Source: a virus
Length of the DNA stretch: 23,836 nucleotides
Virus record (IMG/VR): IMGVR_UViG_3300007346_000246
Span: 1 to 23,836 of that record
Reading direction: 5' to 3' (one strand)
Notes under the pieces: generated by a model
Told to the model about the DNA's origin: nothing
Seen by the model: only the letters and a program-made list of their open reading frames with translations
Databases searched by the model: none
Shown here: piece after piece, positions 3,155 through 10,748 of the stretch
Layout: each line of letters begins with the position of its first letter
How positions within the stretch are numbered: the stretch's first letter is position 1
Translations under genes and position numbers: made by a program

Positions 3155-4662
3155 TGGGCATCCGCACTGAAATTTTGCGTCGTTTCGGCCTTCAGCCTGT
3201 GCAGAAGGCGCTGACACCGGTAAGACGCCGTAATTATGCGGGGGCAATTATTAGTCGTCTGACAAGTGACTGGATGGCAACGCAGGCCAGTGCGGACGCT
3301 GAAATTCGCACCAGTTTGCGGAAGCTGCGTGACCGCAGCCGCGAGATGGTGCGGAATAATCCGTATGCCAAGCAGGCAAAGCGGACGACGCAGATCAACG
3401 TTGTCGGCAGCGGCATCAAGATGCAGTCGCAGGTGACGCTGCTGCGTGGCAACCGCCGCGATGAGCGCACTAATGCATTGATCGAGCAGAAATGGGCGTC
3501 ATGGTGTCGCGCACAGCATTGTGATGTAGCTGGGCGTCAAAGCTTCCACATGATGGAGTGGCTGGCTATTGGCGCGTTGCCTGAGTCAGGGGAGGCTTTG
3601 TTCAGGATCGTGCGTCGACCGTTTGGCGGCAGTCGAGTGCCATTGGCGCTCCAGATGCTTGAGGCTGATTACTTGGATGAGGAGTATCAAGGCCCAACCC
3701 TCGCCAATGGGAACGAATGGCGGATGGGTGTGGAAGTCAATGAATGGGGCCGCCCGGTGCGGTACGCCTTCCTCACGCGCCATCCAGGTGACTACTGGTT
3801 CCAGAATGCTCCGCAACGAAACGAAAAGCATGTCTTCCTGCCGGCGGAAGATGTCATTCATTTGTTTATTCCTGAGCGACCACAGCAACATCGTGGCGTG
3901 CCGTGGTTCCATCCGGTGATGTCAGACGCGCATCAGCTTCAGGGGTACGAGGAGGCTGCTGTAATTCGGGCGCGTGCTGGCGCGTCGATTATGGGCTTTA
4001 TTACTAATCAAGAAGGCGAGCTTACTGCTGATGACGTTGAGAATGAGCGTCGGATCAGCGAGTTTGAGCCAGGCATGTTCAAGTATTTAATGCCGGGCGA
4101 AAACGTAACGGTGCCAAACATTGACTCGCCTGACCAGCAGTTTGAAATGTTTGTGCGCAATAAGGTGCGCAGGTTTGCGAGTGGTTTTGGTTGCTCGTAT
4201 GAGACGTTGAGTCGCGACTTCAGCGACACAAATTATTCGAGTAGTCGGTTGTCGCTACTTGAGGACCGCGAGCATTGGAAGGTGGTGCAGTCGTACTTGA
4301 TGGAGCATTTCCATATGCGGGTGTTCCGCGAGTGGCTTGCTCTTGCAGTGCTTGCTGGCGAGCTTCCGTTCGATGATTTTGAGGCGCGGCCCGAGCGTTA
4401 TGACACGCCACGTTGGATGGCGCGTGGCTGGGATTGGGTTGATCCACTGAAGGAAGTGAAGGCTTACCGGGAGATGGAGCAGGCGGGTTACATGACAAAG
4501 GCGCAAATTGTGGCGAAGCTCGGCGGTGATTTTGACGAAAACTTGGCCGAATTGGCGCGAGAACAAAAGGCAGCCGATCGCCTAGGCATTGAGCTTGACC
4601 GGGACATTATTGAACAGCCGATGCTTCCGGCTGATCAACCACTGCCGCAGGAGGAAGACTGA
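3154..4662 (+). CDS. Portal protein, lambda family
   Basis: This 502-residue protein should form the dodecameric portal at one head vertex, through which DNA enters and leaves. Lambda-family marks are the N-terminal block with RDRSREMVRNNPYAKQA (about 59-75) followed by VVGSGI, a middle SGEALFRIVRR segment, the RGVPWFHPVM segment, and near residue 350 the hallmark GCSYETLSRDFSDTNYSSSR. The acidic C-terminus ends in a proline-rich tail. The length is close to lambda gpB (533 residues). In lambda the protease is a separate downstream gene, and here too protease and capsid follow at once. It starts at TGATG, sharing one base with the previous stop, and ends in the same way. Confidence 0.95.
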   Translation: MGIRTEILRRFGLQPVQKALTPVRRRNYAGAIISRLTSDWMATQASADAEIRTSLRKLRDRSREMVRNNPYAKQAKRTTQINVVGSGIKMQSQVTLLRGNRRDERTNALIEQKWASWCRAQHCDVAGRQSFHMMEWLAIGALPESGEALFRIVRRPFGGSRVPLALQMLEADYLDEEYQGPTLANGNEWRMGVEVNEWGRPVRYAFLTRHPGDYWFQNAPQRNEKHVFLPAEDVIHLFIPERPQQHRGVPWFHPVMSDAHQLQGYEEAAVIRARAGASIMGFITNQEGELTADDVENERRISEFEPGMFKYLMPGENVTVPNIDSPDQQFEMFVRNKVRRFASGFGCSYETLSRDFSDTNYSSSRLSLLEDREHWKVVQSYLMEHFHMRVFREWLALAVLAGELPFDDFEARPERYDTPRWMARGWDWVDPLKEVKAYREMEQAGYMTKAQIVAKLGGDFDENLAELAREQKAADRLGIELDRDIIEQPMLPADQPLPQEED

Positions 4663-7310
4663 TGGGCGCTAAGCCGAGCGATGGGATGAAAGAAGAGGCG
4701 CAGCGATATCGCGCCTGGAAAGAAGAAGGTCGCAAGGGTGGCACTGATGTTGCTGCTCGCAGGGCCAGTCAGATCCTCAGCGGCGATGAGCTGAGCGATG
4801 AGACCATCCGCACGATGAGTGCATGGTTTGCGCGGCATGAGGTGGACAAGCAGGCTGAAGGCTTCAGTCCTGGCGAGGAGGGGTATCCATCTCCTGGAAG
4901 GGTGGCATGGGCAGCCTGGGGAGGCGATCCAGGTAAAACATGGAGTGATGCACTTGTGGCTCGTATGGATTCTGATCGCGAAATGATGCCGGAGGGTGAC
5001 GCCAGTCGTCCCTATCCGAATGAGCATGCAGCAAGACTGCGTGATCCTGGGCAGTACGACCGCTTTCGTCGCCGTAACGATGAAGGAGGCAAGGGCGTTG
5101 ACTTCATCTTTGGCATCAAGGAAGGGGAAGACGGTGCTGAGCTGCAGGCAATTCGTTTTCGGCTGGACGAGTTCAGCGCTGCTGAAGCGCGTGCATGGCT
5201 AAGCGAGCGGGACTATGAGCCGCTTGAATTTGAAGAAGCAACAGGCGAGCGTTCTAAAGTAGATGAAATTGAGGTCGAAACTGTGACTGAAGAGCGCGCT
5301 GCGCCCAATGCCTTGGATGAAGGCGATTTCGTGTCATGGAACAGTTCTGGCGGCCGCGCACGCGGGCGTATTGAGCATGTGATGCGCGAGGGCACCCTTG
5401 GCGTACCTGGCACTGAATTCAGCATTGACGCAACGGAGGAGGATCCGGCTGCGTTAATTCGGATTTATCGCGATAGCGAAGCGACTGAGACGATGGTGGG
5501 CCATCGTTTTAGCACTTTGACCAAGATTGATCCGATTCGCGCTACTGAGGGCGGCAAGTTCCAGCGCTCTGAGGTGACCTCATTCCGCGCTTTGGAGGAA
5601 GAGCGGAGTTATGAGTTCCCCTTTAGCTCTGAGTATCCGGTGGTGCGGTACTTCGGCAACGAGGTACTGAGCCATGAAATGGATGCAGCAAACCTGAGTC
5701 GGCTTAACGATGGTGCGCCGTTGCTGTTTAACCATGATCCCGACCGGGTAGTCGGTGTTGTGGAGCGTGCTTGGGTTGATGGCGAGAAGAAGCGCGGTTA
5801 CGTCAAGGTGCGCTTCTCGCGTAACAAGTTTGCTCAAGAAGTGCTTGATGATGTCCGCGATAACATTTTGCGCGGCATCAGCTTTGGCTATTCGATCGAC
5901 AAGATGGAAGAGCGAGGCGATGACTTCGTGGCTACCCGATGGTCGCCTTACGAAGTCAGTGTGGTCTCTATACCTGCTGATCCTACGATTGGCATTGGCA
6001 GGTCTCTAACTGATGAGACCGTTGTTCAAGCGGCCCCAGCCGCATCACCAACACCTGAACCTGAAATGGAAAACACTCCAGATCTGGAGGTGATCCGGTC
6101 CGAGGCCGTCGAGGCCGAGCGTACCCGTATCGCCGCCATCAGCGCACTGGGCGACAAGCACCAGATGCAAGACCTGGCTCGCGAGCTGATCGACGGTGGT
6201 CGCACTGTTGATGAGGCTCGCGCTGCTGTCCTCGAAAAACTCGGTACTCAACCTGTGGAACAAGTCATTCGTTCTGCCGATGTCACCTCTAACGACGTTG
6301 GCCTCTCCGACAAGGAGACCCGTTCGTTCAGCTTTGCTCGCGCACTGAACTATCTCGCCAACCCCAGCGATTCTTCTGCTCGTCGGGCTGCTGAGTTCGA
6401 GATCGAAGTTGGTAAGGCCGCTGCTCAAAAGTATGAGCGCGCTTCCAACGGCATCGTGATCCCTAACGAGGTGCTGCGTCGTGATCTGGTGGTGGGCACT
6501 CCTACCGCTGGTGGCAACTTGGTGGCTGATGAGCTGCTGTCCGGCAGCTTCATTGATCTGCTGCGCAACCGTCTGGCTCTCGCCCAAGCTGGCGTGACCA
6601 TGCTGACTGGCCTGCAAGGCAACATCAGCATTCCCCGTCAGACTTCTGCTGCTACTGCCTACTGGGTGGGTGAGAACGCTTCTCCGACCGAAAGCCAGCA
6701 GGCAATCGATCAGGTGAACATGACGCCCAAGACCGTTGGCGCTTACGTCGACTACAGCCGTCGCCTGCTTCTGCAGTCCTCGATTGACGTTGAAGGCATG
6801 ATCCGCAACGATCTTGCCCGCGTGATCGCCCTTGAGCTTGACCGCGCTGCCATCTACGGCACCGGCTCTAGCAACCAGCCTCTGGGTCTGACCAACACCA
6901 CCGGCATTGGCAGCCAGACCATCACCACCTATGGCACCTTCGCCGAGTACATCGGCATGGAAACCGATGTGGCCACTGCAAACGCCGATGGCGGCAGCCT
7001 GCGTTACATCATTAACGCTGCTGCTCGCGGTGCTCTGAAGTCGACCGCCAAGGATGCCGCTGCTGTGGCCGCTGGCTTTGTGTTCGAGGATGGCGAGATC
7101 AACGGTTATCCCGCAATCGTGTCCAACCAGCTGCAGAACAACGATGCCCTGTTCGGCGACTTCTCCATGATGATCATGGGTATGTGGTCTGGCCTGGATC
7201 TGACTGTTGATCCTTACGCTGGTGCTACTGCTGGCACTGTCCGCGTGATTGCGCTGCAAGATGTGGACGTGGCCGTGAAGCAGCCTGGCGCCTTCTGCCT
7301 CGGCACCTGA
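4662..7310 (+). CDS. Prohead protease - scaffold - major capsid polyprotein
   Basis: One open frame of 882 residues holds several parts. Residues 11-101 are a conserved phage segment with WFARHEVDK and AWAAWGGDPGKTW. Residues 118-193 are a second recurring segment (YPNEHAARLRDP). Residues 219-289 look like the Hva1/DUF2945 Tudor domain (GDFVSWNSSGGRARGRIEHV, then VGHRFSTLTKI). Residues 300-447 are an HK97-type (U35) prohead protease with likely catalytic H358 in NHD, S407 in GISFGY and E431 in the PYEVSVVSIPAD block. A Pro/Ala-rich linker (458-468) leads to a charged scaffold-like stretch (469-590) and an HK97-fold capsid domain (about 594-882). M469 could be an internal start, but I see no ribosome site before it. 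Cleavage after assembly would release mature capsid protein. Codon usage changes near 6010-6066. Confidence 0.9.
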   Translation: MGAKPSDGMKEEAQRYRAWKEEGRKGGTDVAARRASQILSGDELSDETIRTMSAWFARHEVDKQAEGFSPGEEGYPSPGRVAWAAWGGDPGKTWSDALVARMDSDREMMPEGDASRPYPNEHAARLRDPGQYDRFRRRNDEGGKGVDFIFGIKEGEDGAELQAIRFRLDEFSAAEARAWLSERDYEPLEFEEATGERSKVDEIEVETVTEERAAPNALDEGDFVSWNSSGGRARGRIEHVMREGTLGVPGTEFSIDATEEDPAALIRIYRDSEATETMVGHRFSTLTKIDPIRATEGGKFQRSEVTSFRALEEERSYEFPFSSEYPVVRYFGNEVLSHEMDAANLSRLNDGAPLLFNHDPDRVVGVVERAWVDGEKKRGYVKVRFSRNKFAQEVLDDVRDNILRGISFGYSIDKMEERGDDFVATRWSPYEVSVVSIPADPTIGIGRSLTDETVVQAAPAASPTPEPEMENTPDLEVIRSEAVEAERTRIAAISALGDKHQMQDLARELIDGGRTVDEARAAVLEKLGTQPVEQVIRSADVTSNDVGLSDKETRSFSFARALNYLANPSDSSARRAAEFEIEVGKAAAQKYERASNGIVIPNEVLRRDLVVGTPTAGGNLVADELLSGSFIDLLRNRLALAQAGVTMLTGLQGNISIPRQTSAATAYWVGENASPTESQQAIDQVNMTPKTVGAYVDYSRRLLLQSSIDVEGMIRNDLARVIALELDRAAIYGTGSSNQPLGLTNTTGIGSQTITTYGTFAEYIGMETDVATANADGGSLRYIINAAARGALKSTAKDAAAVAAGFVFEDGEINGYPAIVSNQLQNNDALFGDFSMMIMGMWSGLDLTVDPYAGATAGTVRVIALQDVDVAVKQPGAFCLGT

Positions 7311-9673: not shown

Positions 9674-9913
9674 GTGATTGATGAGTTTCAAGGGCAAGGT
9701 GGCTCGTACATCCTTGACCCCGAGACAGGCATCCGCACTCTCGTTAAGCGGACGCTGCCACCTGTTCCACAAGAGGTAATTTCCAATGCCCCTTCTAACT
9801 CGGAAACGTCTGATTCTTCTGGAGACGGAATCGACCTACGGGACCGATCCGACTCCCGGCGGAGCGGACGCCGTTCTGGTTCGCGATCTGAATATCACTC
9901 CACTGCAGAGTGA
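9674..9913 (+). CDS. Small protein overlapping the tail tube gene
   Basis: A 79-residue frame begins at GTG 9674. Residues 1-37 (DEFQGQGGSYILDPETGIRT, then LVKRTLPP) match a short protein type that I recall just before tail-tube genes in lambda-like prophages, with the GQGGSY and tGxRxLVxRT signatures. The frame does not stop there: residues 38-79 run 128 bases into the tail tube gene in another frame and become Ser/Arg/Asp-rich. Either the protein really has this overlapping tail, or the functional part is only the first half and the rest is tolerated read-out. It also carries the ribosome site of the tube gene (AGAGGT). The function is unknown. Confidence 0.5.
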   Translation: MIDEFQGQGGSYILDPETGIRTLVKRTLPPVPQEVISNAPSNSETSDSSGDGIDLRDRSDSRRSGRRSGSRSEYHSTAE

Positions 9914-10721
9914 TGTTGTTAGCCGTGAGCTGATTCGCCCTTATCTGGGCGCATCGGAGCAATTGCTGGCCAACACTCGCGTTGAATGCACCTTCAGCGT
10001 TGAATTGGCCGGTTCTGGCGCTGCTGGCACTGCCCCTCGCTACGGCAAGGCATTTCTTGCCTGTGGCATGAGCGAAACTGTTTCTGCCGGCGTGAGCGTA
10101 ACTTACGCGCCTGTTAGTGCCAGCTTTGGCAGCTGCACCATCTATTACAACATTGATGGCGTACTGCACAAGGTGACCGGTGCTCGCGGGACTTTTGCGC
10201 TGAACATGGCAGTCGGTGAGATTCCTACCTTGGATTTCACTTTCACTGGTGTGTACAACGCTCCGACTGATACTGCAGCGCCTTCGGTGACCTATGCCGA
10301 TCAGGCGACTCCTGTGATTGCCAAAGCTGGCAATACCACTGGCTTCCAGTTGCTGTCTTACAGCGGTTGCCTGCAGTCTGTGTCCTTCGATGTTGGCAAC
10401 ACCCTGGTGTATCGCGACCTGATCAACTGCACTAAGCAGGTGCTGCTGACCGATCGCGCTAGCACCGGTAGCGTTGTGATCGAGGCTCCGACCATCGCTC
10501 AGAAGGACTACTTCACTGCAGCGCTGAGCGACGGCACCCTGGGTAACCTGCTGTTCCAGCACGGCCAGACCGCTGGCAACATCGTTGATTTCGCCTCCAC
10601 CCGAGTCGATATTGGCGATGTGAGCTACAGCGACCAAGATGGCATCCACATGCTGACCATCCCCTACACCTGCGTACCTTCGACTGCAGGCAACGACGAG
10701 TTCAGTCTGGTTTACACTTGA
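9786..10721 (+). CDS. Major tail tube protein
   Basis: A 311-residue protein, beginning MPLLTRKRLILLETESTYGT and continuing with PLQSDVVSRELIRPYLG, then TFSVELAGSG. This is the pattern of tail-tube proteins of siphophages in which hexameric rings stack to form the tube. The middle holds a strand run (VLHKVTGARGTFALNMAVGE) and the end GIHMLTIPYTCVPS. A strong ribosome site (AGAGGT, 8 bases before the ATG) and a biased codon set point to high expression. No TTA, CTA or TCA codon occurs from 9795 to the stop. It is followed within 28 bases by an intrinsic terminator. It has no visible C-terminal Ig domain of the lambda gpV kind. Confidence 0.82.
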   Translation: MPLLTRKRLILLETESTYGTDPTPGGADAVLVRDLNITPLQSDVVSRELIRPYLGASEQLLANTRVECTFSVELAGSGAAGTAPRYGKAFLACGMSETVSAGVSVTYAPVSASFGSCTIYYNIDGVLHKVTGARGTFALNMAVGEIPTLDFTFTGVYNAPTDTAAPSVTYADQATPVIAKAGNTTGFQLLSYSGCLQSVSFDVGNTLVYRDLINCTKQVLLTDRASTGSVVIEAPTIAQKDYFTAALSDGTLGNLLFQHGQTAGNIVDFASTRVDIGDVSYSDQDGIHMLTIPYTCVPSTAGNDEFSLVYT

Positions 10722-10748
10722 TCTGTTGGACACAACGGATGAGATGGG

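Follow-up and report, generated by a model that had tools for sequence, protein, structure and literature searches.

The fused frame and its domains

The stretch of DNA analysed here (IMG/VR virus record IMGVR_UViG_3300007346_000246, positions 1 to 23,836, hereafter the window, 23,836 nucleotides in length) carries on its plus strand an open reading frame (ORF), 4662-7310, which starts with ATG, encodes 882 residues without an internal stop and joins three N-terminal modules (A, B and T), a prohead protease, a scaffold and a major capsid domain in one chain. This gene appears to encode two in-frame products, the second of which would begin at an ATG in the linker behind the protease. The features of the locus are as follows.

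4662-7310, plus strand: whole frame of 882 residues, with modules A-B-T, protease, scaffold and capsid (ORF, Pfam, PHROG)
4662-4982, plus strand: module A, residues 1-107, helical 'RHEVDK' module, phrog_2859 (PHROG match; predicted local distance difference test score, pLDDT, about 84 over most of it)
5001-5246, plus strand: module B, residues 114-195, 'PNEHAARL' segment (invariant residues in the family alignment; low model confidence)
5307-5537, plus strand: module T, residues 216-292, Hva1/DUF2945 Tudor-like barrel (Pfam PF11160; fold match to PHF1 Tudor)
5586-5999, plus strand: HK97-type prohead protease, Peptidase_S78, residues 309-446 (Pfam, PHROG 617)
5733-5735, plus strand: H358, predicted catalytic His (invariant in 43 sequences)
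5880-5882, plus strand: S407, predicted catalytic Ser (invariant in 43 sequences)
5952-5954, plus strand: E431, predicted third catalytic residue (invariant in 43 sequences)
5985-6083, plus strand: disordered linker from protease to scaffold, residues 442-474 (pLDDT under 50)
6066-6068, plus strand: ATG of M469, proposed internal start of a scaffold-capsid product (linker ATG, codon switch, accessibility)
6066-6497, plus strand: putative scaffold (delta-like) domain, residues 469-612, helical (model; position between protease and capsid; HK97 analogy)
6084-6086, plus strand: codon 475, codon-usage change point (change-point analysis)
6086-6095, plus strand: GGAGGTGATC, perfect complement of the 16S rRNA 3' end, 17 nucleotides downstream of the internal ATG (chance 0.03 per window)
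6495-6542, plus strand: disordered stretch, residues 612-627, probable maturation cleavage region (model; aligned start of the deposited R4C capsid chain)
6498-7307, plus strand: HK97-fold major capsid domain, residues 613-882 (Pfam PF05065, PDB 8GTA, Foldseek)

The protease was recognised by the Pfam Peptidase_S78 profile at residues 321-442 (38.2 bits, cut-off 21), and its predicted catalytic residues H358, S407 and E431 are unchanged across 43 diverse relatives, with spacings of 49 and 24 residues that also match those of the HK97 protease triad. The capsid domain matches Phage_capsid (PF05065) at residues 617-881 (150.9 bits, cut-off 24.2), its closest solved relative being that of phage R4C (PDB 8GTA, E 1.6e-53), and a Foldseek comparison returned 8GTA (E 1.9e-21) and HK97 (E 1e-12). 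PHROG 617, 'major head protein', extends over residues 311-881 (E 5.8e-162), from the protease through the scaffold to the capsid of a single ORF, and the cut-off of NF045541, the protease-capsid fusion family, was missed (176.7 vs 525 bits). The full-length structure model (mean pLDDT 73.7) is composed of separate domains (module A, which is helical, the Tudor barrel, protease, a helical scaffold that begins at residue 475, and capsid), and residues 442-474 and 612-627 form disordered linkers between them.

A first scan for relatives gave at least 598 stretches encoding them among the 600 listed. Among all loci fetched, protease and capsid lie in one ORF in 304 and are split in four, all of them distant, and the 882-codon frame is therefore real and not an artefact; the 304 fused loci also exclude in practice that a sequencing error masks a stop near 6000-6066, a danger recognised when the fused frame was first proposed. 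That original prediction, in which accessory segments, protease, scaffold and capsid share one frame, is thus confirmed by the ORF, by Pfam and PHROG and by the relatives. Isolates aligning from the N-terminal module through the capsid are S-CBS1 and S-CBS3, both with fused proteins of 836 residues, and five CRP roseophages (CRP-811, 821, 822, 831 and 406), and the module-free protease-capsid fusion is widespread in prophages. In CRP-823 (L082:5049-5054), a relative of CRP-821, 822 and 831 (all annotated with a single intact ORF), one extra T in a run of T breaks the gene up, so that two 'major capsid proteins' are annotated; a natural gene split was considered and rejected here, as the single extra T explains it and may be a sequencing error.

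The R4C ORF has 629 residues and its deposited capsid chain is only the last 268 of them, the first of which aligns with G617 of the window protein, which makes it likely that everything upstream of about G617 would be removed from the latter at maturation.

The dose problem and a probable second start

Fusing a protease to a capsid protein poses a problem of dose, as a prohead has no room for a protease and several modules on every subunit. The cavity of a T=7 head has a radius of 190-230 Å. For phage R4C, 415 capsid subunits have been reported (PMC10276861). At that copy number, residues 1-612 would amount to 27.9 MDa and fill 0.66-1.18 of a cavity of 190-230 Å radius; residues 469-612 alone would fill 0.16-0.28 of the same cavity. 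Since packing at the upper of these values is impossible, a second start was looked for.

In 55 non-redundant genes of the window's lineage, codon usage is ordinary up to codon 475 and from there on strongly biased, of the type found in highly expressed genes. This change point, located with codon tables that were trained only on residues 1-300 and 620-882, has a bootstrap range of 475-480 and a permutation P < 1/5000, and the bias is stronger downstream of the switch in all 55. In the window, the cumulative codon deviation of this gene reaches 4.9, with its peak at codon 475, compared with 0.7 to 2.1 in four other genes; residues 469-882 form its most codon-biased coding stretch, followed by the tail protein at 9786, and its portal, terminase and tape measure genes have no codon bias. 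When 102 diverse genes are pooled, the change point lies 6 codons past the linker ATG. Synonymous diversity within residues 446-882 has a minimum that begins at 475-476 (P < 1/2000). Two long antisense ORFs (6045-7259, minus strand, 404 residues; 9795-10733, minus strand, 312 residues) lie over the window's two most codon-biased stretches and are probably a by-product of the codon bias.

The linker itself is otherwise unalignable, and yet an alignment of 11 sequences has Met in every member. Among 105 fused genes, non-redundant at 70% identity, 104 contain an in-frame ATG no more than about 50 residues past the protease; this is only mild evidence, because equal control stretches contain one in 79 to 89 of these genes. 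The excess of Shine-Dalgarno sequences is stronger evidence for an internal start: a strong one (-6 kcal/mol or better) is found at the linker ATG of 51 of the 105 genes, compared with 26.4 ± 3.2 (maximum 33) after codon shuffles that keep the protein and with 5 to 20 genes in six equal control stretches. The fraction of linker-region ATGs having a strong Shine-Dalgarno (0.33-0.47) equals that of the surroundings of annotated starts. The family thus has a conserved in-frame internal ATG with initiation signals, as expected for a start of the lambda C/Nu3 kind, and the upstream Shine-Dalgarno is missing from the window's own copy. The start region of M469 (unpaired 0.58) is more accessible than 14 other window starts tested and than 90 of 91 internal ATGs, and since it is the most accessible tested though a Shine-Dalgarno is absent, Shine-Dalgarno-independent initiation at M469 is plausible.

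The sequence GGAGGTGAT, which makes up the first 9 bases of the GGAGGTGATC site, does not vary among the lineage genes (81 of 81), and after it comes CGG, an Arg codon that is otherwise rare; no start codon is present at a usable distance after GGAGGTGATC. A hairpin after M469 was also considered and dropped, as it fails to hold across family variants.

Codon switch, suppressed synonymous variation and conserved linker ATG all indicate, as far as sequence comparison allows, a separate and more heavily translated scaffold-capsid product, and together with the accessibility of M469 they support the earlier suggestion that an internal start at this codon makes extra capsid protein. In our opinion the gene quite probably makes two in-frame products. 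Initiation at 4662, where the start is preceded by a strong Shine-Dalgarno (aggagga, 4649-4655, -10.3 kcal/mol), would give a minority product, a polyprotein with modules A, B and T, S78 protease, scaffold and capsid domain, whereas initiation at M469 (ATG 6066) would give the majority product, a scaffold-capsid protein of 414 residues, the counterpart of HK97 gp5. As the two share the capsid domain they would co-assemble through it, and the full-length chains would thereby bring protease and modules inside the prohead in a controlled, minor proportion. The scaffold would next be removed from all subunits by the protease, through a cut near residues 612-617, leaving a mature capsid protein of roughly 270 residues.

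Several observations weigh against this explanation. Both Gifsy-2 and the diverse genes show only a small codon step, and in half of the latter the linker ATG has no strong Shine-Dalgarno; M469 has no Shine-Dalgarno upstream (+0.4 kcal/mol, vs -10.3 at the full-length start), and the copy number and cavity radius used above come from relatives and from general knowledge. Moreover, the same capsid excess could be yielded by an internal promoter, as in herpesvirus UL26.5, which is made from one; a shorter transcript translated from M469 would supply the additional scaffold-capsid protein, and both the codon switch and the absence of a Shine-Dalgarno in the window's lineage would also be accounted for. 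However, no sigma-70-like site was found at 5300-6300 and many relatives have a ribosome-binding site instead, and we regard a promoter as improbable. A similarly low probability is given to a single product, with all subunits made as the 882-residue polyprotein and with modules and protease cut off during or after assembly. The frame is indeed open throughout, with a strong Shine-Dalgarno at the full-length start and none at M469, but such a product is at odds with the change of codon usage at codon 475 and the suppressed synonymous variation at that point, with the linker ATG found throughout the family and with a prohead overfilled at 0.66-1.18, and in view of the same four observations the original prediction is not supported insofar as it expected every module at equal dose with capsid protein. 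That the switch only records the recombination of a capsid half from a phage with other codon habits is very hard to believe, even though N-terminal modules have clearly been swapped among relatives, as the switch sits at the internal ATG and not at the edge of the protease domain, and is found again in this position both in diverse fused genes and in the Gifsy-2 family, which is unrelated.

Exchangeable modules at the N-terminus

Module A is covered by phrog_2859 (residues 5-108, E 2e-28), a family without assigned function, and a profile search with it against solved structures gave no match. In module T, Hva1_TUDOR (PF11160) was matched at residues 221-267 above its cut-off (27.7 vs 24.1 bits) and the modelled barrel aligned to PHF1 Tudor with Z 7.2 and a root-mean-square deviation of 2.2 over 55 residues (VIA-align rows for the N-terminal model, residues 210-293 only), which bears out the Tudor-like assignment made at first and speaks for the fold, not for function. 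Profile searches therefore matched phrog_2859, PF11160, S78 and PF05065 in this chain, but no Pfam or PHROG family for the PNEHAARL segment, module B, which, of the annotated phages, only S-CBS1, S-CBS3 and four CRP roseophages possess. Scans with R4C alone and with the most diverse module A alignment returned nothing. In the literature, no paper was found that treats Hva1_TUDOR or DUF2945 together with phage, and Tudor domains are not mentioned in the polyvalent-protein and jumbo-phage papers.

Module orders were called with profiles built in this analysis. The order A-B-T, that of the window gene, is one of many seen in relatives: the orders found ahead of the protease also include A-X-B-T, A-X-B, A-T, A-B, A-T-B, A-B-X and A-X-T-B, and further arrangements are A alone, B-T, T-B, B, T and none. 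The N-terminus is thus an exchangeable cassette, the modules of which have been reshuffled among relatives. X stands for a module with four cysteines (CANC..C..C), which matched HiPIP below threshold and was found between A and B in loci L010, L058, L063, L069 and L143, and the protease of phiPsal1 contains a four-cysteine stretch resembling it. CRP-821 has a DUF5824-like segment, and at locus L060 module A is missing from its usual place.

Elsewhere, homologs of module A are found in head proteases, portals, MuF proteins and small standalone proteins, and proteases and portals of archaeal viruses carry it too. It is present at the C-termini of portals of two Pfam families (L308, L322, L334, L341, L342 and L343) and in one case follows a MuF domain. 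Portals, MuF and head proteases face the prohead interior in the usual models of tailed-phage heads, and because these carriers do so, A, B and T are by analogy probably prohead-interior modules on the minority product. The earlier proposal that the modules act within the prohead gains support from these kin of module A, insofar as the placement by analogy holds. That the full-length chain would be a vehicle bringing interchangeable modules (A, B, Tudor, four-cysteine, DUF5824) into the prohead, and that these would not be assembly waste but remain in the virion, with packaged or ejected DNA as their target, is a tentative and rather doubtful extension of this idea.

Two further arrangements were observed among the relatives. 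In L329:2281-5499 an XkdF-type protease, module A, a Tudor domain and a ferritin-like domain lie in one chain. In Limnohabitans phage DC31 (L095:1329-3340), A and Tudor are found in two adjoining separate genes upstream of the capsid gene, and module A is fused to an XkdF-type protease.

Comparison with known systems

The protease-capsid fusion as such (PHROG 617, NF045541, Gifsy-2) and the presence of module A on it are already public. The new result concerns dose, as the modules and the protease would be present on a minority of shell subunits only; neither an embedded capsid start nor the shared module set was found in the literature, open-access papers being covered. Two products are probably encoded by each of hundreds of phage genes that are annotated as a single major capsid protein, and a common, unnamed set of small modules recurs on prohead-interior proteins of bacterial and archaeal viruses.

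The tripartite capsid gene of Gifsy-2, reportedly described by Effantin and colleagues in 2010, resembles that of the window in joining a protease, a central region and a capsid and in having an internal ATG after the protease, but its protease is of the ClpP type (CLP_protease), whereas the window has S78, and its capsid belongs to a different family, PF25209. In this comparison, for which the capsid gene alone of the Gifsy-2 record was analysed, an ATG at residue 221, the end of ClpP, is invariant and has a Shine-Dalgarno (mean -6.2) in 35 of 35 non-redundant relatives, and the codon change point lies at residue 214, 7 codons from the ATG, although this effect is weak (28/35). An embedded capsid start, which would solve the dose problem, seems to have evolved twice, in fusion families that are unrelated.

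Fusions of the PHROG 617/NF045541 type (R4C, RcCronus, VP882, Mica and Jilinvirus ECO1230-10) have S78, scaffold and HK97-fold capsid on a single ORF, as in the window, together with an in-frame linker ATG, often with a Shine-Dalgarno, but lack modules A, B and T. The gp04 proteins of the Synechococcus phages S-CBS1 and S-CBS3 and the proteins of the Roseobacter phages CRP-811, 821 and 406 have module A (with B, T or DUF5824) in front of the same fusion, in the arrangements A-B (that of S-CBS1 and S-CBS3), A-T, A-DUF5824-B or A only, and A-B-T in none.

In lambda C/Nu3 and in herpesvirus UL26/UL26.5 an internal start raises the copy number of the C-terminal portion of a protease fusion; these pairs share the scaffold only, whereas the products of the window gene would share scaffold and capsid. 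HK97 gp4 and gp5, finally, have the same protease family, delta-type scaffold and capsid fold, with the protease as a minority component, but are encoded by two separate genes.

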